Below, piece after piece: positions 4,973 to 30,720 of a DNA stretch of 64,000 nucleotides. A program made the translations under genes and the position numbers. The notes under the pieces are model-generated. The model saw only the letters and a list, made by a program, of their open reading frames with translations, made no database searches and was not told the origin of the DNA. Every line of letters begins with the position of its first letter. Position 1 is the stretch's first letter. Location of the stretch: contig JAJEKV010000052.1 of assembly GCA_021234155.1 (NCBI GenBank), positions 2,660,254 to 2,724,253 on the forward strand, written 5' to 3'. This DNA is from Isoetes taiwanensis (Eukaryota > Streptophyta > Lycopodiopsida > Isoetales > Isoetaceae).

Positions 4973-5320
4973 ACGTCGCATGCGACGTCTAGTATTCTTT
5001 ATTTTAATTTTATTTAATTTACTGATTTTAATTAATAATAACATATATTTATATATATTTATGCACATGCGATGTTTAGTAGACGTTGCATGCGACGTCT
5101 ACTAGACGTCGCATGGTCACGTCTGTGTGGCGTTTGGGTCACGTCTGTGTCACATGGGTCACGTCTGTATCACGTCTGGGTCACGTCTGTAGACATCGCA
5201 CGCGTTGTCTGTACCGCGTCGCATGCGACGTGTCTCTAGCAACATCTAGGTCACGTATGTGTCACGTGGCCAGACGTTGCATAGACATGACCCAGACGTC
5301 GCTATAGACGTTGCTAATTG
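4973..5320. repeat. palindrome and direct-repeat cluster (GCATGC and TCACGTCTG motifs)
   Basis: A perfect 16-bp palindrome, ACGTCGCATGCGACGT, lies at 4973-4988. A 26-bp near-palindrome centred on GCATGC spans 5078-5103, and a related palindrome lies near 5216-5230. Between them GGTCACGTCTG is repeated about four times (about 5115-5195). This resembles the subterminal repeat arrays of some DNA transposons. No matching terminal inverted repeats were found, so the parent element is unknown. Confidence 0.7.
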
Positions 5321-5850
5321 ACCTTTCTCTTGTTGCGTATCCTTCCAGAATGACACCAACAAAGCACCTTTAAGCAATGCAGTTTGAATATTCTTTACTA
5401 TCCCATGTAGCATAGCGCAAATAATGTTGTTCTTTTAATGCCATGGAAAAAAAAAAAGAATAATGTTGCTTTTTCTTTTTTGAAGCCATGGAACAAAAAT
5501 TTAGGCCCTTTCAATCACATCTTTTCCAGTTACAGTTTGAATTAAATATTTTCATCTTGAAATACACTCCATAATACTTAGATATAGACTGACACCAAGT
5601 TAGTAAAGAGAAATGTTCGCAGTGGGCTTGGCCGCCGTGATAAATTTCTTGTATGTATAATTCCCTCTAGATTTTCAATCACAATTGATAGGCCTAGCAT
5701 CCCCCTCCTCCCTTTTTTTTTACTTGATTACTTCAAAACCAATCTAGGGCACATAATTGTATATCGCGTCCACTAATAGCGTCACTATGGGTGTAACATA
5801 AATTCTCTGAAGGAGATGAATTTGCAAAAGTGGTGTTGCGCCATCAGACA

Positions 5851-6629: not shown

Positions 6630-8290
6630 GAGCCAAATGTGAGATTCGTTGTGATTTTTTATTGGAACCAAATTTGTACCACACTTGTACTCTGAGATTC
6701 ATGACCTCGTCTTGATTGTTATCAGGTCATGGAGTCAGCAATCTTGGCATGGAGCAGAATCGTGGGTTTTGAACAGTTACATATCGCATCTCCACCAGCA
6801 AGTTGCTAAGCGTACAGAATTCGCAAGTTTCAAAAGTCCAGTCTGTTCATTCACTATTTCTGCCGTATTCTGCCGTATAGTGTTGAGGGTAGTGTTGACA
6901 TGGTGTTTTATGTCCTTTCTTAGTTCGTTCCTTGGAAAGACTAAGCAATAAATTCGCTATCAAGAACTTATTTGTTGTAATGCAAAAGGAAACTTGTAGG
7001 CCCCATTTTTGCGGGCTGAGAATTTGTTGAAATACAAAATCTGGATCGTTTGGTTTAATAAGGACCTGTAGAAATGGGCTTTAAGGGTTTTTAGTTGAGC
7101 CCCTTATGATAAATAAGGTGCTCATTTCCAAAAGAGCATCTCATTTCTGTCCTACTTATCTTATTTATTGCCAAAAACAAGTAAGATTCATTGTTTGGAG
7201 AGTATCACCTGTGGAAATGACACAGCCGAATCCATAGCCATGGATGAAAAGATAACATATGCACGTGCACACTAATCCGCAGCGAAAAAGCACGAATTAG
7301 CAGCAAAAAAGCCCGAATTAGCGCAGTTCCTTTCTGCCCATTTCTCTCTCATATGGGACCTTGTTTACTGTCATACTGATTGATTGACTTGGCATGGCTT
7401 TGCCATGATAGTTGCTTGGATGCTTCATGTGTGTTGGCACGTTGACCTTTAAGTTTATGATAGTTAAAAAATGGGTGATCATGCAATTTAGGCTTATAGT
7501 TTGATCTAAATGCGGGCGTTCAAACTTATGAAGCTAAGGTGCTAACATAATGCACAATGGAGCATGCACGTTGTTGGGGGGTTCATTATGTTTCTTTAGC
7601 TTGAATGTACAGTTGAAAAATAGAAGCAGCTTTATGTATCAGGGAAGTATAAAACCACAAATAAGAACTTGCAGCATGCTTGAAGAGCTCATAAGCAACA
7701 TTCTTAATTCTCAAAGAGCTTTGTTTCGTTTCCCTTGTCACCCTCGTGGGCCTTAAATAAGGCCCAGGCAAGCCAAGCTCACCTGTTCTTTGAGCTTCTC
7801 TACAAACAAGGAAGTTCATATTCAGAATATTTGGAATGCCAATAGATAACAGATGCTACTTTCAGTTAGTGTCACAAAATATTTGCCCTGTTATTAATGC
7901 TCAAGCAAGACAAGGAACTACTAACAGATAAAAGTGTAAAATATCTAACTGCACATGCTTATACTAGCTAACAATCTAGCTATAAAGCATCTGCAGTGCT
8001 TGAACTTCCAGCGTCCATACGAGCACGTGCCTGATGTTCAACAAGCCTTTTTTGGGTTTATTTGTTTAGTCTTTGCAATGCACTCACTATCCAGTGATAA
8101 AAGTCTTCGTTCTCAGCATGAAGTTTGGCATATGATTGTAGGAAGGCAACACCCACGATCTTTCCTCTAATATGCCACACAGCTAAAGCAAAGTTGACGA
8201 ACTATGCAAGCAAACTAACCAAAAATAAAATAAAATAAAATAAATGAGGGGATTAAAAGGCCAAAAAAGTCCACAGATTTTGAGAGGGGA
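6630..8290. other. intergenic between divergent genes A and B
   Basis: No gene recognised. The 5' flank of B from about 6886 onward is closely matched by 48488-49760 upstream of gene C, so the promoter region was duplicated with the gene. An (AAAAT)n tract at about 8220-8243 lies just before the B start region. Confidence 0.6.
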
Positions 8291-21060: not shown

Positions 21061-22029
21061 GCATCTTGAACCCGATCTTCAGACTAGATTTATTATGAGT
21101 CTTTTTCTCTGGTAAGTTCTCTGTGTCTAGATGCTCAGAGTTTATCATCTAGACCATTCTATGATCCATTCTATATCGTAGCAGCATTATTTCCCATGTC
21201 GCTAACTGGCCAGAATCATACCATGCTGCAACTGTCAAGATTCCTGCTAACCTCCAGCGCCGTTGAGTTAATGGATGAACCGAGGCACAAAGTGGAAGAT
21301 TATTTTCCACAGGTATCCACCAACAAGGGGCACTCAACTGATGACATGCAACAAGATCAATACGAAATAGGGTCCGTATTGTCTCCCAAGACTCCAGCAA
21401 GCCTTTCAAAAAAGGAGAGGCATTAGGAAAAGGGCATAGCTGATAAAAGAGACTCCAAGGAAGAAGCGGTTTTAATGAAGCTTTCCCAAAAGGAACACAC
21501 TTTGCAAGTGACTGCCTCACCAACCGCACTCCAGGTGAATCAACCATATCCTTGAGGATCCTCCAAATGAATTTAGAAATTAGAATCTTCTCTGCAAATG
21601 GAAGTCTGTCATACCCAAACCACCTGCAAATTTCGGCTTGGTGCATTTGGACCATGCAACCTTGACCACAGCAGGGTGAAAGTATGCTGGTGGGTAGCAA
21701 AAAAACGCGACGCCAGCACCAGCACCAGCACCAGCACCCAAAATACATTTTTTCCCACCCGTCATACACTTTTTTCCCACCCTTCACCTATATAGTACCA
21801 CCTATATTCTGCCCGTCTATTCGTCTAGCCGGTACCCGTTTATACAATCATGACCTGTTTGCCGCCCCCGGTAATGAATGCGACCCCTGCAATCTGGAAC
21901 CACTAGACAAACGAACGAACTTTCGAATTTGTGTTTTTCCAAATCTCTCTTCCCCAACTTTCTCTACTCCGGCCAAGCAATCCGCGAATTTGCGCTTTTG
22001 GATTTCCACTTTATACAAACAGATCAACC

Positions 22030-24540
22030 ATGGTAAAGAAGGTGATTGATCCGCCCGCTCAAGCAGTAATTCCAACGGAACCCATTATCCGGGTAAGCAA
22101 AAAGCAACAAAACAAAATTTCAATGGGTTTAAGGTTCAACCCTGTTAATTCGATTTTCTTGCATTCTTCCGGGCCGGAAAAACGCGTTCCCTTAAGACCG
22201 GGACTGGCTGATTGCGAACCGAAGAAGACTTCCATGCGTATCGCAGTCCGCCAAAACCGAGGGCGTTCATCCCTCTCAATTTCGAACAGATCTCATATCC
22301 GGCAGAGAGTACAATGAAGTTTGGGATACCAACGGGGTCATTCCCTGGCAAAACTTCCATTGACAAGGTGAGGCCGAGGACCGAAGAAGCTCTAATAGAG
22401 CTTCGAAAGCAAAATATACCCTGACGGGTTGAAGAACGAGAAGTTAGAAAGACGATATCATACCTATTTGCATTCAATAACCGCACTTTGAGAGCAAAGC
22501 GGGATCCACGAAGTTCAAGGTTAATTGGGCGTGATTCGCGGCAAAGAGTAGAGCCTACGGCATGGGTTAAAAGTGAACCCAGCAAGGTGCTCCAGCCAAG
22601 CGAAGCGAGGCCGCAAATCTCAACAAACCCACGGCACCGAAAGCATAGCGTAAAGGCCCGCCTGAGGAGGCACCGGTATTAAATTAGAAGGGAGGCCGTC
22701 CATTAGGAGCTTTGCATCAGGCCCAGCTTACGGCTTATGGGGGGAGAACATATCACGCTGGAAGTCCCGTGCAAAGATTTGCGGGGAAATCCTAGACACC
22801 GCAGCCGGGCTGATTTAGTCTCCAACAAGGAGCTAGTTGTCCAGTCGATCGAGGCTAAAGGGAGCTTTCTTCTTGGCTTCACAAGAGAAATTGCAGAAAA
22901 TTAAAGACAACATCTCACGTCTTCAAGCAGTCATAGGTCCCGATCTTTGGTGCCTCTGGCGAGCTCTTGAGCTTGGAGAGAGAAAAGACATGGCGGAGTA
23001 CATGCTCAAAGCCCTTGTTGAAATGGGGGTGGCCCAATAGATGAGGGATAGTTCAACAGTGGCCACTATAGGCTGGCGAGGTTGCAAACAATGAAGTGCG
23101 ACTTGCAAAAGCCAAGCGAAGATTTTGCGAGAATCTCAACAGCTTAGGGAACTTACAAGAGAGCTGGCCAAACTTGTGAGCATCTATCCCGTGACATTCA
23201 GGGTTGCCAATTGGAGATGAGGAGAGATGCTCCACATGCGGGCTGGCATTCCGGATGATTACACCCTAAGTCCGGGTTGAAATGTGGTCCGCGTATATCA
23301 TGTCACCGCCTCGAGTTTGCTTATGGAGAAGACACAATTGCCTCGAATGCTTTCGGAAAACAGTTCCAGCAGGCTTAGTGGAGGAATTGGGGAAGACAAA
23401 TCAAGCGGGAACCCTTATATCTTTGGGCACACACAAACAAATAGTTGAGACAATTGACCTAGATGAGGTGGTAGCTACAACTCCAGGGCAACGAACGAGA
23501 AAAAGGAAGCATGTGAAAACACCTCTTAGTAAAAGGACCCCTGACACAAGTCTACAAGGACTCGAACTCCACAAGCAAGAACAGCCAAAAAGGTACACGC
23601 TTTGTTTCACGAAGTGGGTACATTAGAAGCGCCGTAGGCGGTGAACGGCATGAGGCAAGCGGTCGGCCAGACATTGCGGCACACAAAGCAACGTGCTAAA
23701 GACACCAACACGGTCCAAAGCAGATTCCAGTGGTTACGGCGATCTTTGAGAAATACAATATAGTGCCAAATTCTGCGAACCTCTACAAAAGGCCTCCTCT
23801 AACACTTTGTTGATGCGGGCGGAACAAGGATGTTGAAGACCCAAATATAGTGGATAAGCGGTGAACAAGGTTGTGGGCGAATCACAAGGCTCACAAGGTC
23901 CGGGACCAAAAGGTTATAGAGCCCGAGTGAGGGTGAGTCGGATGATTCGGTTGATGAGGGCGTGCCTATAGGCGTGGCACTAGGAAAAAAAACCAACCGT
24001 CTAATGTAATTTATATGTACTTGTTTTCAGGCCCAATTTTGTTTGCACAAGACTTGCCAAAAACGATCAGTTAAAAGGTTTTTTGTGTAATACCATAATA
24101 TATGTTTTTTCCCCATTGTGTCCTTGTAAAATTTGTTTCGAGTTTCAACCTAGGGATCAATATGCATTTGCATGCGAGAAGGAGAAGAAGGCGACCACAA
24201 GTGGTGCTTCTTGAATCTAAAAGTCGAAGATAGTGAGAGAACCCGACGGATAATGAAGAAACCAAAGTGCAAAAACAAACTATTACATATAAAAGGTGCA
24301 ATCCAATATTTAAGTTCAAGCGGTTATTTTACTTGTCTTATTTCACTTGGCATAATGTCCCGCGGTTTAGGTTTGGTAATTGTAGCACCACTTTTGATTT
24401 TGCGGAGACCAAGGACCCTAAGCCACCACTTGGTGCGGGTTCGCGATAGCCGAGAAACACCCATACATTGGGGACGAGGGAGATACTAGTAAGGATGTAT
24501 CTAGCTATGGCTATCAGCACTCTCCATCACCGGTAGCAAA
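22030..24540 (+). other. degenerate coding-like region upstream of the FCP1-like gene
   Basis: This stretch is richer in GC and poorer in A/T runs than its surroundings and reads as broken coding sequence on plus. ATG 22030 in a good context (ACCATGG) opens MVKKVIDPPAQAVIPTEPII. A second frame contains PPKPRAFIPLNFEQISYPAE and then FGIPTGSFPGKTSIDKVRPR. Further on are EKLQKIKDNISRLQAVIGPD and LWCLWRALELGERKDMAEYM. Stops and frame changes separate the pieces. No family recognised. It may be the 5' exons of the FCP1-like gene or a separate transposon gene. Confidence 0.4.
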
Positions 24541-24546
24541 AGATAA

Positions 24547-25410
24547 ACCGAGTCCAAAGGGTCTTTCGCAAAGAACTTCCAAAGACGTCCGGATAGCACT
24601 TCCCGGCCAAGTCCAAAGACGCACAAGCACGATCACGGCAGCCCATCGATAGTGGTTGCAAACGTCGAGGGATGGACACCCAGACGGAAGTGCATGGTGC
24701 TTGACATAAATGGTGTACTGGCACAGACACAACAGAGGAGAATGAACCAAAAAATCTTGCATCCACTACAAACGAACCATGTTGTAAAAGAAACTGCAAG
24801 TAAGTACCTCATTTGCAGACCAGGGTATCATGAGTTTGTGGAGTGGGCACTGCAGAGGTTTGATGTTGTGATTTGGAGTGCTTCTCTACTTCGGAATACA
24901 AGGGATATGGTGGATGCATTGTTCCCTGAGTTGCAGACTAGATTCTTGAAGATATATGGTCAAGAGCATTGCTATGCATGCGAGCATCCAACCAGCACAG
25001 AAAAGCAACTCTTTTTCAAGGAGTTGAAGGTTGTTCTTGAGGATTTTCCTCAATATCATGGTATGATTTTCTTGGTTGATGACAGCCTGCACAAAGGGTT
25101 TCTAAACCCTGCACACACAACCGTTCCTGTTATGCCTTTCAAGGGGCAAGAAGAGGACAATTTTTTGCAGAAGTTTGTGTGTCCAGCTTTGGAATACTTG
25201 GCCTCTCATACATTACAGGAAACGATCTCACAAATTGATTTCACTGATGCATGGTTGGCCCCGGAGACAGTTGCAGTGCTGGATTACTGTCTCAACAACT
25301 ACCTTGTCTCGGCCTACTATATCCTCAATGCTCCTATTGAAGTACAAAGGCAGCTGCTGGGCACCCTTCCTGGCGACGAGCATAGATTTGAGGACTTCGA
25401 TGACTCGTGA
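24547..25410 (+). CDS. FCP1/SCP-type phosphatase-like protein inside the transposon
   Basis: The open frame from 24547 to TGA 25408 contains a complete FCP1-homology (NIF/HAD) domain. Numbering from codon 24652: motif I is LDINGVL with Asp18 in place but the second, acid/base Asp replaced by Asn20 (DxN instead of DxD); then CRPGYHEFVEWALQRFDVVI and WSAS (about 55-78); a lysine-bearing KELKVVLEDFPQYHG; and motif IV LVDDS at 141-145. The C-terminus is acidic (FEDFDDS). A DxN motif I also occurs in a plant FCP1-like subfamily, so catalysis may be weak or absent. The first in-frame ATG is at 24694, directly before motif I; the frame is open upstream without an ATG, so the true 5' end (missing exon or frameshift) is unresolved. 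It converges on the transposase-like gene, 440 bp away. The domain frame itself is intact, unlike its neighbours. Confidence 0.7.
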   Translation, partial: TESKGSFAKNFQRRPDSTSRPSPKTHKHDHGSPSIVVANVEGWTPRRKCMVLDINGVLAQTQQRRMNQKILHPLQTNHVVKETASKYLICRPGYHEFVEWALQRFDVVIWSASLLRNTRDMVDALFPELQTRFLKIYGQEHCYACEHPTSTEKQLFFKELKVVLEDFPQYHGMIFLVDDSLHKGFLNPAHTTVPVMPFKGQEEDNFLQKFVCPALEYLASHTLQETISQIDFTDAWLAPETVAVLDYCLNNYLVSAYYILNAPIEVQRQLLGTLPGDEHRFEDFDDS

Positions 25411-25850
25411 AGTAACCATTGTACACTACTTTTTTGTAATATATGCACGATTACTTTGTGTTATCTTGAGTATTGAGTGATCTTGTAAGATGTCTCAAAT
25501 CTTGGGTGTACAATTTTCTGTAATATATATCAAGCTTACTCTCCAATACTACAAGCATTGTTTCCAATACTAAAATACTCCAATACAGCACTACTACAAG
25601 CATTGTTTCCAATACTAAAAGACTCCAATACTCACAAGCATTGTCTCCAATATAATGATCAGAATTTGAGACAAGTACACAAGTAACTACAGACCTGTTA
25701 AAATGATAAAACAACTAGGTCAAAGCATATTCAACCTTCATATGGCAGACTATCAAGGATCATCTGGTGAGTAGCCTGATCAAGGGAAAATCTGTTGGTG
25801 CCAGGAATCTGATTCATCTCAAACTTGATAGCTGATACGTGATGACTATA

Positions 25851-28800
25851 CTAGAAGGTCAGACCTTTGTCTTCAAGTAGCTCCCAAGTACCATCGGGCT
25901 GGACAACATAGTACAAACCAGCCAACACATGTTCATCGACATTGAAGGTCTGACCCCAGCTATCCTTGACAATTCTGTCAAGGATATGCCTCGGCTTAAC
26001 ACATTTCACCACATAGAAATCTGCATTCTCCTGATTTCCCTCCTCGGCTACAACAGCAAAGTTATCACCTTCCTCTATGTTTCCACTAAGCCATTCTCCA
26101 TCACCTTCAAAAAATGCCTCATCGATTTCGTCTTCAGTACCTTCACCAGTAGACTTTTCTGGCTTTAGAGTAACATATTTCCAATTCTTTAACCTCTGCT
26201 TGTTCACACAAGATGACCAGTTTCCTTTCAAACAGTTACCACAGAAACAACTTAAACCTCTATGAGCCACCCTTGTGCTTGATTTGGCCAAGTATGTCCT
26301 GATGCTGTGTATTTCCTTGGTCCCTTCTACCACAGCGCATCCCGCCGGTCTGTCCTATCAACATCATCCTTTCCAATGAACCCGGTGCACGCAAAAAGCC
26401 GGCAACAACTATTGCGGTTCACATATACGATGCAGAGGCACAATCTGACATTACCGCGGCAGATAAAAGCGGATGAAAGCACTTTGTGAAGCGGATGAAA
26501 GCCGTTTAAAAGCGGATGAATGCAGATGAAAGCATATTACCTCTTGATGTCCCCGTTGCTGGCACCTTCATTCCAACTCATAGCGAATTCACAGGCATCA
26601 GCAGCACCCCTAAATCTCACTCCATCATACTTGAGCTGCTCTCTAGTGAATGCCCCTTTAAGGACTGCCCCTTGCCCATCGTGCTCTCCCTTACCATGGG
26701 CTGTCCCAAAGAAATTCCATATTATTTCCTTCCCTAGCTCGTGGTGATATCTTGGTAGGAAATAGAATGGTCGGGCATATTTGAATTGGCTAGAACAACC
26801 ATCTGACCAAACTATATGCCTGGAGAATTCTACACCATTTGATACTAGCCATGAATTGTGCTTTCTAAGACAAAAGCATGTTAGGGTGTCCCTTAAAAAG
26901 TATTATTTAGTGACTAAAAAGGTACCTAAAAAGGTAGCCAGGACTGGGTACTGGGTACCTGTATAATATCTCAATATAAGGTATGTTTTAGAACTTTTTA
27001 TATATATATTGATCTCCGATAGCATTATCTTTATCTTAACTTTGAATATTACCATGTCCTTGACTTTTATTTTGGATTTTTGTATTAGTTTTAATGAAAA
27101 GAAAAATGAGAAAGTACCCAGTTCAGAAGTACCTAGTGTATGTACTTTTGCAGGTTCCAAAAGTGGTACACCCTAACATGCTTTTACCCAATTGCACAAA
27201 AAGAGTGTCATGAAGCTTGTCATCACTCAAGTAAAAATGGGTTTCCTTCAATAGCTTTCTGGTAATTGTGTGACACGAATATCTTCAACATGGAACACAG
27301 ATATGAAATGAAAGCCTTCACTGCCGTTTTCTTGTAGGACAATCTAAGGACTGGCTTTGGTCCTTTCTTTTTTTTCCCCTTGCCATTTGAGGTCTCATCT
27401 TGTCTTTGCGGCTTGGAGGTGTCCCACCAGCTGCCTTGGATTTCTTACTTTTGTTTCCCTTCTTCTCAACTTGTCTTTGCTGACTTCAGTGTGTCCCACC
27501 AGCTGCCTTGGATTTCTTACTTTTGTTTCCCTTCTTCTCAGCTTGTGCTGCAGCTTCAGGCTGTGTTCCACCAGCTACCTTGGACTTCTTACTTTTGTTT
27601 CCCTTCTTGGTGGCATTGGATCTTTTCTTTCTGCTGCCACCTGGCACTTCCTTGGTAACGCAGGCGCAACTCCACCAACTTCTTCCTCGTCTCCACTTTG
27701 GAATCTGTAACAAGGTGCGTAGCATAAAAAAGAAGATCGGTATAAAAGTTTGAAAGCACAAAAGCAGTATTCAGCACATGACAGCACATATCAGCATGCT
27801 TCAGCAAGCAATAAAGAGAGTATTACCTTTTCAAACGTCTTCCATTCAAGCAAGAACTCGTGATTCTCTCTTTCTCTTGGACATATAGGAAGACTTTTTA
27901 TGCCACACTTCGACATGTGCGCATCAAAGCGATCATGTTTATACCATTCTTCACCCTCGCTCTTGCAAACCACAGCCCTCGAGCTTCGGCCGGTTGAGTC
28001 ATACGTATGTTGGGCGGCGGACACTTCTCACCGGTCCACCAGGACCTCAGCGGTGCACTTGCACTCTTCACCATGGAATCCAGTTTTCGCTGACCTTAAT
28101 GCATTCAGTGCTACCCTGGCATACTCCAACTTCATATGGTATATGCAACAACAGGTTTCCCTTTCTGATACTTTCTTTACATAAATAGGCTTCAACTTCT
28201 CGAAAGCCTTTAAGCAAACAGGGTGTTCAGGATGTGCCTTTTTGTATTGTTGATATAGCTGCAGCTGAATGGTGGCCTTTGGTTAGAAATATTTATGCAA
28301 TAATAGCAGAAAAAAAAAGTTTGTATGGAAACTTATACATGTGTGACCTCCATAAGGTGCAAGGGATAAGAAATTCGGAAGCCTGACTCTCCAACAGTGT
28401 TCACAACATCTTTCTTGCAAGGAGAGACTCTGTTGTTTTCTTTCCAGAATTCTGTTATGCTTTGCTTGCAAAGCGAGGGTGAGAGAATCGCACCTCAACC
28501 TCTTTTGGAAAGCGGACCACGCGGACCATTTCAAGGAAAGCTTCGATTTCCTTAATGCAAAGCGATTGCAATTGTTGACCTCATGCAACCTATCATAAGA
28601 AATATTGCACATGTATCAATGAACATATCCCAGCCAGCATCACTCAGCAGATACAAGCACTTGAAAGCATGAAGAAGCACAGGCATGAAGGCAAGAAATA
28701 GATGTACCTAACAGCCCTGCCATAGTGGAATTGCATCTCGAATTTGTGGAAGGAGCCATCACAAGTGTTGAGGTTCTGGCTCTCCAAATATCATGGTTCC

Positions 28801-29021
28801 TTTGCCTCTTTGTGGCTGCCATTGTCTGTTTCAAGTTGTTGAGCAGCACCCCGCTGCCTTGCACTCCTTTGGATTTGGCAAAAGTCCGGTTCTGAGATTT
28901 CCATTTCGTGGTGATGAACCACCCTCTTCATCACATCAGCCTTGAGTTCGGGTGAATGCTTTTTGGTGAGCTTATTGAAGTAATCAACTACTTGCTTGGC
29001 TATTTCTTGCCTGCGTCTCAT
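25851..29021 (-). pseudogene. transposase-like gene, H-G-K-G motif family, decayed
   Basis: Exon-like blocks in order on minus: RRRQEIAKQVVDYFNKLTKK (about 29020); FEKLKPIYVKKVSERETCCC-IYHMKLEYARV (about 28215-28090) with a downstream Cys-rich part; a Lys-rich linker made of three KKGNKSKKSK-AGGT repeats (about 27640-27400); HFYLSDDKLHDTLFVQLG (about 27230-27180); RHIVWSDGCSSQFKYARPFY and IIWNFFGTAHGKGEHDGQGA (about 26785-26640); a donor at 26541; and a last exon 26333-25851 with GLSCFCGNCLKGNWSSC. The SDG...QFK and HGKG..D blocks match an uncharacterised transposase-like family I recall from mosses, ferns and animals; the acidic residues in them are candidate DDE residues. Frameshifts (for example at about 26340) and a MITE insertion make it a pseudogene. 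It lies wholly inside the 7.9-kb TIR element. Confidence 0.7.
26872..27185. mobile_element. 314-bp MITE inside the transposase-like gene
   Basis: Perfect 18-bp inverted repeats, AAAAGCATGTTAGGGTGT at 26872-26889 and its complement at 27168-27185. Flanking AC on both sides (26870-26871, 27186-27187) is consistent with a 2-bp target duplication. Removing the element with one AC restores the transposase frame (FVQLG to LRKHNSW). The interior is AT-rich with scattered GGTACC/GTACCC motifs near both ends and has no coding capacity. Confidence 0.8.
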
Positions 29022-29571
29022 GCTCAGATCCTCCCGCTCAACCGGCCGCTCTTTTCATCTTATTCCTAATCAGTATTCTCTCTTTCTCCGCTGCATCCAA
29101 TTTCTTGTAAATTGCGGAGGAAATCGGATCTTCACGCGTGATATTTCCCTGTGTTGCATTGACATCCAACAAATCGAACACCGTCTTTGGGATTCATCGG
29201 GCCAAAAATCCAATGCTAAACGTGTGATTGCCTCGGGCCGGTCTCTCGGGGGCGCCATGAAATTCCCAGAGAGGGAGGATAAGTGAATTGAGGGAGAATT
29301 TTCATGACCCATGGCGAAATAATCCAATTTGCAACGTAATACCACACCACTCGCGCGAAAATCCAGCCAAAAACCCACAATCATTTTCCTAACGGTTCAT
29401 TCGTGAGGTGGACGTGTTAGTACATGAAGGGCGTAAAAAAAAATGACGGGCAGTTACACCCATCAGCACCCCAAATTAAGCAAAAGCAGGGGTGCTTTAA
29501 GCGGGCTAAAACCCTGCTATAAGCATGCGTCCGGACGCATGCTTTTGATACCCACCAGCATACTTTCACCC

Positions 29572-30720
29572 AGCATGCTCCTCAGTCCCACCCCAAATAA
29601 AATTACGGACAATAGTAACAATCACCTGAAATTTTGACTGAGAAGCCAGAAGGGCAGAGGCCATATAGACATGGGAATTACTTAAAACATGCTTAGCAAC
29701 CGTTATTCGCGCTGGCAAAGAGAGCTTAGCAGTATTCCACCAAAATAAATGCTTACGCAACCCTTCTATGATAATATCCCAAGCATCAGAGGTAGAAATA
29801 TGAATGCCCACAGGAATACCAAGAAGTTTAGTAGCCTTTCATGAGGAAGCACCTTCCAAGGAAACTCTGCAACACAAGGAGGTACACCGATGGGACAGAC
29901 CTATTTGGCAAAAGATTGCTGGTACTCTGCCATTGGTTGCTCCAGAGGATATTGAAGGGTGCATGTGGGTTTCCCACCAGAGTGTTCACGAGCATAGGTT
30001 TGTGAACTCTATATATAGGCTGCTTGTCAATAGTGATATCCTTCCGCCATCCACTAGGTGGTCCCTTCAGCTTTCACCTCCTAATTGGAGACGTATGTGG
30101 ACTTGGGCTTGGGATAAATTACTCCATCCTAAGGTGGCGGTGCTTTGGTGGCAGATTCTTCACAGATGCCCTCGTGTGAACGTGCTTGTCCACAGATTTG
30201 ATCCTCCGATTAATCGACCTCGCCCCTTTGTGCAAGCAAAGGGACGAGACCATTGAGCATTGTTTCTTTTTATGTGTTCATCTCCAGCCTGTTTGGTCTT
30301 GGTTGCTTACTCTTTTTCATGTGACATTGACAAGCCAGCAAGTGCTTCTGGCTATTTATCCGGATGCTTGGAATAAGTTGCGGAGCCAAGCATTTCATTT
30401 AGCATCAGGATGGTTGTTGTGGTCCATCTGGAAGCGCAGAAGACTGTGTATCTTTCAGGGTTTGGATATTCCTCCTGCAGTTGTCCTCCAGAACGCACAA
30501 GCTAGAATCGCTAAGGCATACCATTGTTCTTAAACTTGCTCACCTTGGCGACAATTGATATTTGAGTCCTATCTGAGTGTGTTGTCTTATGCATAGGCTG
30601 GTGGTTCTACTCAGTGGATCATGATTATCCTCTGAGACTTTATTCCTGCCTCTGCATTTGTATTTTGCTTTTGGCTTGGAGTTTCAATAAAGTTTGTCGT
30701 TCTTCAAAAAAAAAAAAAAA
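29572..30720 (+). repeat. zf-RVT LINE 3' segment, arm 1 of an inverted pair
   Basis: About 29952-30720 is closely repeated, inverted, at 31848-31095. Both copies carry the same 3' UTR phrase ending CAATAAAGTTTGTCGTTCTT before the poly(A), so they belong to one LINE family and sit tail to tail 374 bp apart. Confidence 0.85.

Follow-up and report, generated by a model that had tools for sequence, protein, structure and literature searches.

The window, a stretch of 64,000 nucleotides from Isoetes taiwanensis (assembly GCA_021234155.1, contig JAJEKV010000052.1), holds at positions 21674-29571 a DNA transposon with terminal inverted repeats (TIRs) that carries an FCP1/NIF-like gene, a disrupted transposase gene and the broken remains of a third gene, open reading frame 1 (ORF1). 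The 23-bp TIRs are perfect, the element is flanked by a 4-bp AGCA target site duplication (TSD), and joining the flanks with a single AGCA restored a 118-aa minus-strand frame that spans the junction (...NFIWGGTEE^HAVVKVAWSKC...GGLG...). Judged by eye, this interrupted frame is like that of a long interspersed nuclear element (LINE). The TIRs, the duplication and the rejoined LINE-like frame had been described in an initial annotation of this DNA and were all reproduced here. Its placement of an FCP1/NIF gene convergent with an HGKG transposase-like gene was likewise borne out, with the SDGCSSQFK and HGKGEHDG blocks found in one minus-strand frame. The two-gene content given there was incomplete, as the RING-like ORF1 had been overlooked. 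Considered together with its relatives in the same genome, the window element is probably a decayed copy from a large and diverse TIR lineage whose fuller members carry a RING-like ORF1, an FCP1/NIF gene and a DDD transposase, the first two in putative accessory roles. The features of the window copy are as follows.

21670-21673, no strand: left TSD, AGCA, 4 bp
21674-29571: whole element, TIR DNA transposon of 7.9 kb
21674-21696, plus strand: left TIR, GGGTGAAAGTATGCTGGTGGGTA, 23 bp
22030-24004 (about), plus strand: ORF1 region, broken in the window copy; placed from the frames of other copies, start and stop codons checked
23228-23350, plus strand: RING-H2-like segment of ORF1, a frame-shifted remnant in the window
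24547-25410, plus strand: FCP1/NIF-like gene, open frame of 287 aa (Pfam PF03031, E 1e-20), with the NIF domain at residues 48-220
24703-24717, plus strand: active-site motif D-I-N-G-V of the FCP1-like gene
25731-29258, minus strand: transposase gene, several exons, disrupted in the window; start and stop positions deduced from majority frames among the copies
26537-26902, minus strand: frame holding the SDGCSSQFK and HGKGEHDG blocks
26675-26698, minus strand: HGKGEHDG motif, third invariant Asp
26780-26806, minus strand: SDGCSSQFK motif, second invariant Asp
26873-27191 (element 5200-5518), no strand: 319-bp nested insertion with inverted ends within the transposase gene, seen as a blastn gap against other copies
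27260-27263, minus strand: approximate position at which this element lacks about 194 bp present in copy L001 (L001 5537-5732 against element 5588/5589); in other copies this segment holds VIDFAENY with the first Asp
29549-29571, minus strand: right TIR, exact reverse complement of the left TIR
29572-29575, no strand: right TSD, AGCA, 4 bp

The window family and its three genes

An rbcL-like copy in this genome aligns over almost its full length with RuBisCO large chains, several of them plant entries, in line with a plant host. In the assembly, 1.66 Gb in 1110 contigs, the exact 23-bp TIR matched 329 times (164 and 165 times on the two strands), whereas the reversed pattern used as a control matched 0 times. 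The element ends therefore exceed chance, and the TIR, whose uniqueness the initial annotation had proposed to check, is not confined to the window: the element is one copy of a large, high-copy family. Among the 100 of the 329 TIR places that were listed, 28 inward-facing pairs lay on the same contig less than 25 kb apart; 18 of these span 7.54-8.00 kb and none is shorter than 5.7 kb, so that among the listed pairs the multiplied unit is the full multi-gene element.

Probes for the left end, the FCP1 gene and the right end were also used, and the best 40 of 332, 494 and 815 first-look candidates were scored, respectively. The family sample consisted of 29 fetched copies (12 from the probe lists and 17 from near-full-size exact TIR pairs) plus the window. 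Both ends are present in 28 of the fetched copies (the stretch for L012 does not span both) and, with the window, in 29; all 29 two-ended copies have perfect 4-bp TSDs, comprising 26 different words with 29% G+C. FCP1 sequence occupies the same position in every one of the 30 copies, window included, although it is partly deleted in L008 and L029 and interrupted by an insertion of about 240 bp in L005. The recurrence of the FCP1 frame, named in the initial annotation as a point on which the element could fall, was thus found throughout the family, and also in the diverged families described below.

By domain match and predicted fold, the FCP1-like protein belongs to the NIF domain/HAD-fold family. 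Its frame matched the dullard-like subfamily model TIGR02251 at 7e-12, below that model's cut-off. The AlphaFold2 (AF2) model had a mean predicted local distance difference test score (pLDDT) of 69.9, with most of the domain above 80, and its closest structures were CTDNEP1, SCP1-3 and TIM50, and also Fcp1. Active FCP1/SCP members have the catalytic motif D-x-D-x-(T/V). This motif was not found in the element proteins, which instead read D-(I/V)-N-G-V in all 19 of the 29 family copies where it is readable, D-V-N-G-V in the diverged copy L036, and likewise D-x-N in L032, L039 and L043. The element gene thus resembles the SCP/Dullard/FCP1 (NIF) HAD-fold phosphatases in NIF match and AF2 fold, and differs from them by D-x-N for D-x-D and by being transposon-borne. 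The earlier designation of the gene as a phosphatase holds for the domain (PF03031, 1e-20) and is uncertain for the enzyme: given D-x-N in place of D-x-D, phosphatase activity is doubtful.

ORF1 lies on the plus strand in the left third of the element, where single copies have frames as long as 432 aa. A RING-H2-like pattern (C-x2-C-x15-C-x-H-x2-H-x2-C-x9-C-x2-C) is complete in L008, L018, L023 and L026 among the 29 family copies and in ORF1 of L036, and ORF1 of L042 shows it with one altered spacing. As a control, the minus strands of these sequences, 237,881 residues in all, did not contain the pattern. A fusion of RING and FCP1 by splicing was considered and rejected, the donor guessed in L036 not being present there.

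The transposase gene is on the minus strand, in several exons, and is recognized by the motifs VIDFAENY, WSDGC and HGKGEHDG. In an alignment of the core, D73, D160 and D201 are invariant in 14 of 14 rows that are 50-95% identical to the first row, and some other copies, L018 and L036 among them, have the core as an open frame. Transposase pieces compared with Pfam, NCBIfam and PHROGs gave no match above a curated cut-off, and two successive versions of the core alignment, both run against viral contigs and the later one also against a second contig collection, gave 39, 69 and 39 pattern matches and no relative by tblastn; these collections are viral or prokaryotic, so that the result does not bear on other plants. 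The Foldseek list for the core model was led by Piwi/Argonaute domains, with unrelated folds also present. By VIA structural comparison a designed protein came first (Z 8.4), followed by the P-element transposase (8.0), IstA (7.8) and, at Z 6.4-7.5, retroviral integrases and Argonautes; Z scores of about 8 may reflect only a common arrangement. An RNase-H-like fold is thus weakly predicted for the core.

The initial annotation called the window transposase decayed. This stands insofar as the frame is broken by the 319-bp insertion and by the loss of about 194 bp relative to L001, which removes the segment with the first-Asp motif. Part of the apparent decay may have another source. Across 12 aligned copies (11 fetched plus the window), substitutions were found at 12.1% of CG/CHG bases and 10.1% of adjoining bases, compared with 2.5% four or more bases away; deletions were at 2.0% near such sites versus 0.4% at a distance, and insertions at 2.1% versus 0.3%. 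Substitutions and indels are thus 4-7 times commoner at or beside CG/CHG sites than elsewhere. Given that deamination accounts for C-to-T changes but not for indels, methylation-linked base-calling error in the assembly's repeats may underlie some of the frame breaks.

Two further features were observed within the transposase gene. A piece 92% identical to the 319-bp insertion occurs elsewhere in L010 (oriented 7432-7748), so that the insertion is itself probably a short mobile element. In the N-terminal part, at about 27394-27620 of the window, there is a repeat of about 72 bp (KKGNKSKKSKAAGGTQ-like units) that varies between copies.

Diverged relatives in the same genome

The genome was scanned with PF03031, and the best 150 of 3263 candidates were scored. 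Among these, 49 rows above 85 bits look like host genes and the weaker rows form several dispersed classes. Eight class representatives were fetched with their downstream sequence (L032-L039). In L032 and L036 an HGKG transposase frame is convergent with FCP1, and in L039 a downstream minus-strand frame resembles, by eye, the N-terminal exon of the transposase; no transposase frame was found within the stretches fetched for L033, L034, L035, L037 and L038. A protein search of the genome with the L036 transposase core was then scored for the best 138 of 9391 rough candidates (identities 54-100%). The 150 NIF rows were cross-tabulated with 136 transposase rows, four partial transposase rows being left out. 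Among the matches listed, a transposase lies within 3.2 kb of 11 of the 150 NIF matches (L032 and L036 among them), in convergent orientation each time, where the chance expectation for pairs within 6 kb is 0.15; two further NIF matches have a transposase within 20 kb, in other orientations.

Joined to its neighboring stretches (L040 and L041), L036 forms a complete diverged element; it is 6889 bp long and has TIRs of 27 bp (26 matching, GGGTG ends), a TATA TSD, and long open frames for ORF1, FCP1 and transposase. In a shuffle test with 14-base ends and a 4-bp TSD, a pair was obtained in 0 of 15 shuffles when one mismatch was allowed and in 10 of 15 when two were; since two-mismatch ends arise so readily, it is the 26/27 TIR match that carries the call of this element. 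Identity to the window family is 50% for the transposase core of this element and 33% for its FCP1. FCP1 and a convergent transposase also stand side by side in another lineage, L043. All three gene regions thus recur within the window family, the FCP1-transposase pair recurs in diverged families, and the three genes occur together in one complete diverged element.

In an unrooted transposase tree, L042 and L046, two copies of one line, fall together with the window family (96/94) and outside the clades of L036/L032 and of L043. ORF1 of L042 directly adjoins the transposase; in the 1.8 kb beside L046 (L052) no ORF1- or FCP1-like frame was seen by eye, so that the absence of FCP1 is documented by the single copy L042. 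Taken with the grouping in the tree, this would mean that FCP1 was lost in the line of L042 or gained after that line split off.

Several observations were made on these relatives and on other NIF genes. A palindrome of the CGTCCGGACG type lies just inside the TIR at the right end of both the window element (about 29520-29545) and the L036 element, and, given that their TIRs differ, is possibly a shared subterminal protein site. At positions 2-1865 and 3831-5402 of L042, a Helitron-like helicase frame (named by eye) adjoins an element that has ORF1 and a transposase frame open for 524 aa but lacks FCP1. An aspartic-protease-like retroelement stretch precedes FCP1 in frame in L032 (302-1432, oriented; Pfam gag-asp_proteas 16.4 bits, below cut-off) and is probably a neighboring insertion. 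L033 (632-1558) and L034 (560-1567, both oriented) represent a dispersed D-x-N NIF class (D-M-N-G-V); the fetched stretches hold no transposase, and the class may consist of host genes or belong to other mobile elements. Contig C1018 has at least 12 strong NIF/FCP1-type matches (142-172 bits) in 4 Mb at about 22.9-26.8 Mb, with more on C1078, C1060 and C1084; these matches look like a large host expansion of FCP1-type genes.

Superfamily placement and origin of the gene set

The 4-bp duplication had led to the proposal of a Sola-type element, which proved a sensible lead. Sola elements, as described in passages of PMC10741241, have a DDD transposase, a 4-bp TSD, a length of mostly 2-9 kb and TIRs of 11 bp and more. 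The element shares the 4-bp TSD (29 of 29 two-ended copies, and TATA in the diverged element), its three invariant Asp stand at plausible places for a DDD transposase whose RNase-H-like fold is weakly predicted, and its size of 7-8 kb and TIR length are inside the Sola range. By these described features of TSD, DDD and size, Sola would be the superfamily that fits best. The Sola passages of PMC10741241 mention neither RING nor FCP1-like genes, and call Sola seemingly uncommon in flowering plants, whereas the genome studied here gave 9391 rough transposase candidates (best 138 scored). A Sola-type transposon with a second gene is described, in the part of PMC3627910 on Sola2, as Sola2-Fanzor chimeras in Dictyostelium fasciculatum and Polysphondylium pallidum; there the cargo is Fanzor/TnpB, not FCP1 or RING, the hosts are slime molds, and the TSDs are AT-rich, of type AWWT. 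In the passages of PMC9976928 and PMC10294476, Sola is treated only as one of many superfamilies.

Membership of another DDE/D superfamily, or of an undescribed one, is a serious alternative that we judge the less probable. It is favored by the transposase pieces having matched nothing above cut-off in Pfam, NCBIfam or PHROGs and by the TSDs, only 1 of 29 of which fits AWWT; it is opposed by the shared TSD length, the three invariant Asp, and the size and TIR length within the range given in PMC10741241. Ginger transposons also have a 4-bp TSD, with a Gypsy-integrase-like transposase. The transposase profile scans gave no Pfam integrase-core match, and the retroviral integrases among the VIA matches are accompanied by other RNase-H folds.

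Selection on the three genes was estimated as the ratio of nonsynonymous to synonymous substitution rates (dN/dS) between the majority sequences of two subfamilies of the window family. The check proposed in the initial annotation gave, for FCP1, a dN/dS of 0.35 (dS 0.20; one-sided Fisher p 1e-4). The transposase core had the lowest value of the three (dN/dS 0.20, dS 0.15, p 5e-6), and the part of ORF1 compared had 0.30 (dS 0.85, p 3e-14). L026 combines FCP1 and ORF1 of one subfamily with the transposase core of the other, and this mixture, with the larger ORF1 distance, points to exchange between subfamilies by recombination or gene conversion. With dN/dS below 1 for all three genes and lowest for the transposase core, the suggestion that FCP1 is under separate selection is not called for; these values indicate that FCP1 is maintained along the element's own lineage. 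The companion suggestion of a recent capture does not hold either, given that the pairing is common to families whose transposase cores are only about 50% identical. On these comparisons, the element is an architecture kept across diverged families.

It could still be supposed that FCP1 is a mere passenger, a piece of a host gene that was picked up a single time and does nothing for the element. Capture of host genes by plant transposons is well established, L042 represents a lineage without FCP1, and the active site lacks the second Asp. A passenger would hardly be expected to persist in all 30 family copies examined and in families whose transposase cores share 50% identity, to show a dN/dS of 0.35, or to have the identical orientation in all 11 close NIF-transposase pairs among the matches listed, and we consider this explanation improbable. 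Slightly more improbable is that FCP1 was captured repeatedly and independently from the large FCP1-like family of the host, each time beside a transposase. The FCP1 tree, in which the window branch is long, would allow for this, as would the other D-x-N NIF genes (L033, L034 and L037) with no transposase in the stretch fetched, but the convergent orientation is constant in the cases seen, and a single gain with a loss, or a gain after the L042 split, requires fewer events. An unrelated host gene lying between transposon ends by chance is refuted by the copies at different sites that hold the gene, each with its own TSD.

The explanation as a conserved three-gene lineage has to be set against a number of results. 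Copies were selected for intact ends or near-full size, so that deletion derivatives are under-sampled. Among the family copies the complete RING-H2-like pattern is readable in only 4 of 29 and is absent from the window copy; Pfam zf-RING_2 reached at best 20.9 bits on ORF1, below its cut-off of 27.3, and ORF1 of L036 had no Pfam RING match at E up to 1. AF2 models the transposase core only weakly (mean pLDDT 56.8), Foldseek with this model returned no match at E 0.001 or better, and the transposases in the VIA comparison stand at Z 8.0 or less, beneath the designed protein. The copies behind the dN/dS values are noisy and were compared as group majorities, of which one for ORF1 still has an internal stop. 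L036 has local frame shifts relative to its relatives, in a short stretch of the core and, as judged by eye, where the last exon ends. No transposase lies within 20 kb of 137 of the 150 NIF matches among the matches listed, the element FCP1 genes are not resolved as one clade in the FCP1 tree, and in L042, a single copy, no FCP1 lies between ORF1 and transposase, so that the lineage does not depend on FCP1 throughout.

Possible roles of the genes and significance

By analogy with DDE/D transposases, the minus-strand transposase would cut at the TIRs and insert with a 4-bp stagger by means of an RNase-H-type DDD site. Less certainly, the RING- and FCP1-like proteins would be accessory factors that favor the element through host proteins such as the RNA polymerase II tail, chromatin or silencing factors. 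That both genes are kept in distant relatives suggests functional components of the element and not an accidental acquisition. The substrates of FCP1/SCP proteins are phosphorylated tails of RNA polymerase II, and TIM50 is a binder rather than an enzyme. With D-x-N at the active site and TIM50 among the best structural matches, the FCP1-like protein could likewise be a binder, perhaps a phospho-binding pseudo-enzyme in which the second catalytic Asp is Asn. The accessory genes would probably act on host transcription or silencing. A more specific version, in which a Sola-like lineage has inherited a module of a RING (ubiquitin ligase-like) protein and a D-x-N FCP1-like protein, the module targeting the RNA polymerase II tail or the silencing machinery and keeping the element expressed, is put forward only as a tentative and rather unlikely possibility.

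A transposase accompanied by one or more proteins that help the element is also the arrangement of MuDR (mudrB), VANDAL (VANC) and CACTA (TnpA) transposons in plants; to our knowledge their accessory proteins are unrelated to those described here and are neither RING nor FCP1-like. The kind of transposon is probably already known. For the FCP1-transposase pairing itself, no description was found in those parts of the literature on Sola, NIF/C-terminal domain (CTD)-phosphatase and HGKG transposons that one open library provided.

Few plant transposons that we know of carry conserved accessory proteins, and some such proteins have revealed anti-silencing mechanisms. FCP1- and RING-like genes in a transposon would give a defined case of a mobile element that addresses host transcription or ubiquitin control, and suggest that many NIF/FCP1-type genes of this genome are transposon genes. 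They would also place a large Sola-like population in a plant; one review calls Sola elements seemingly uncommon in flowering plants (passages of PMC10741241). If the proposal is true, a RING and FCP1 host-interaction module may help to explain why the element has so very many relatives in the Isoetes taiwanensis genome.

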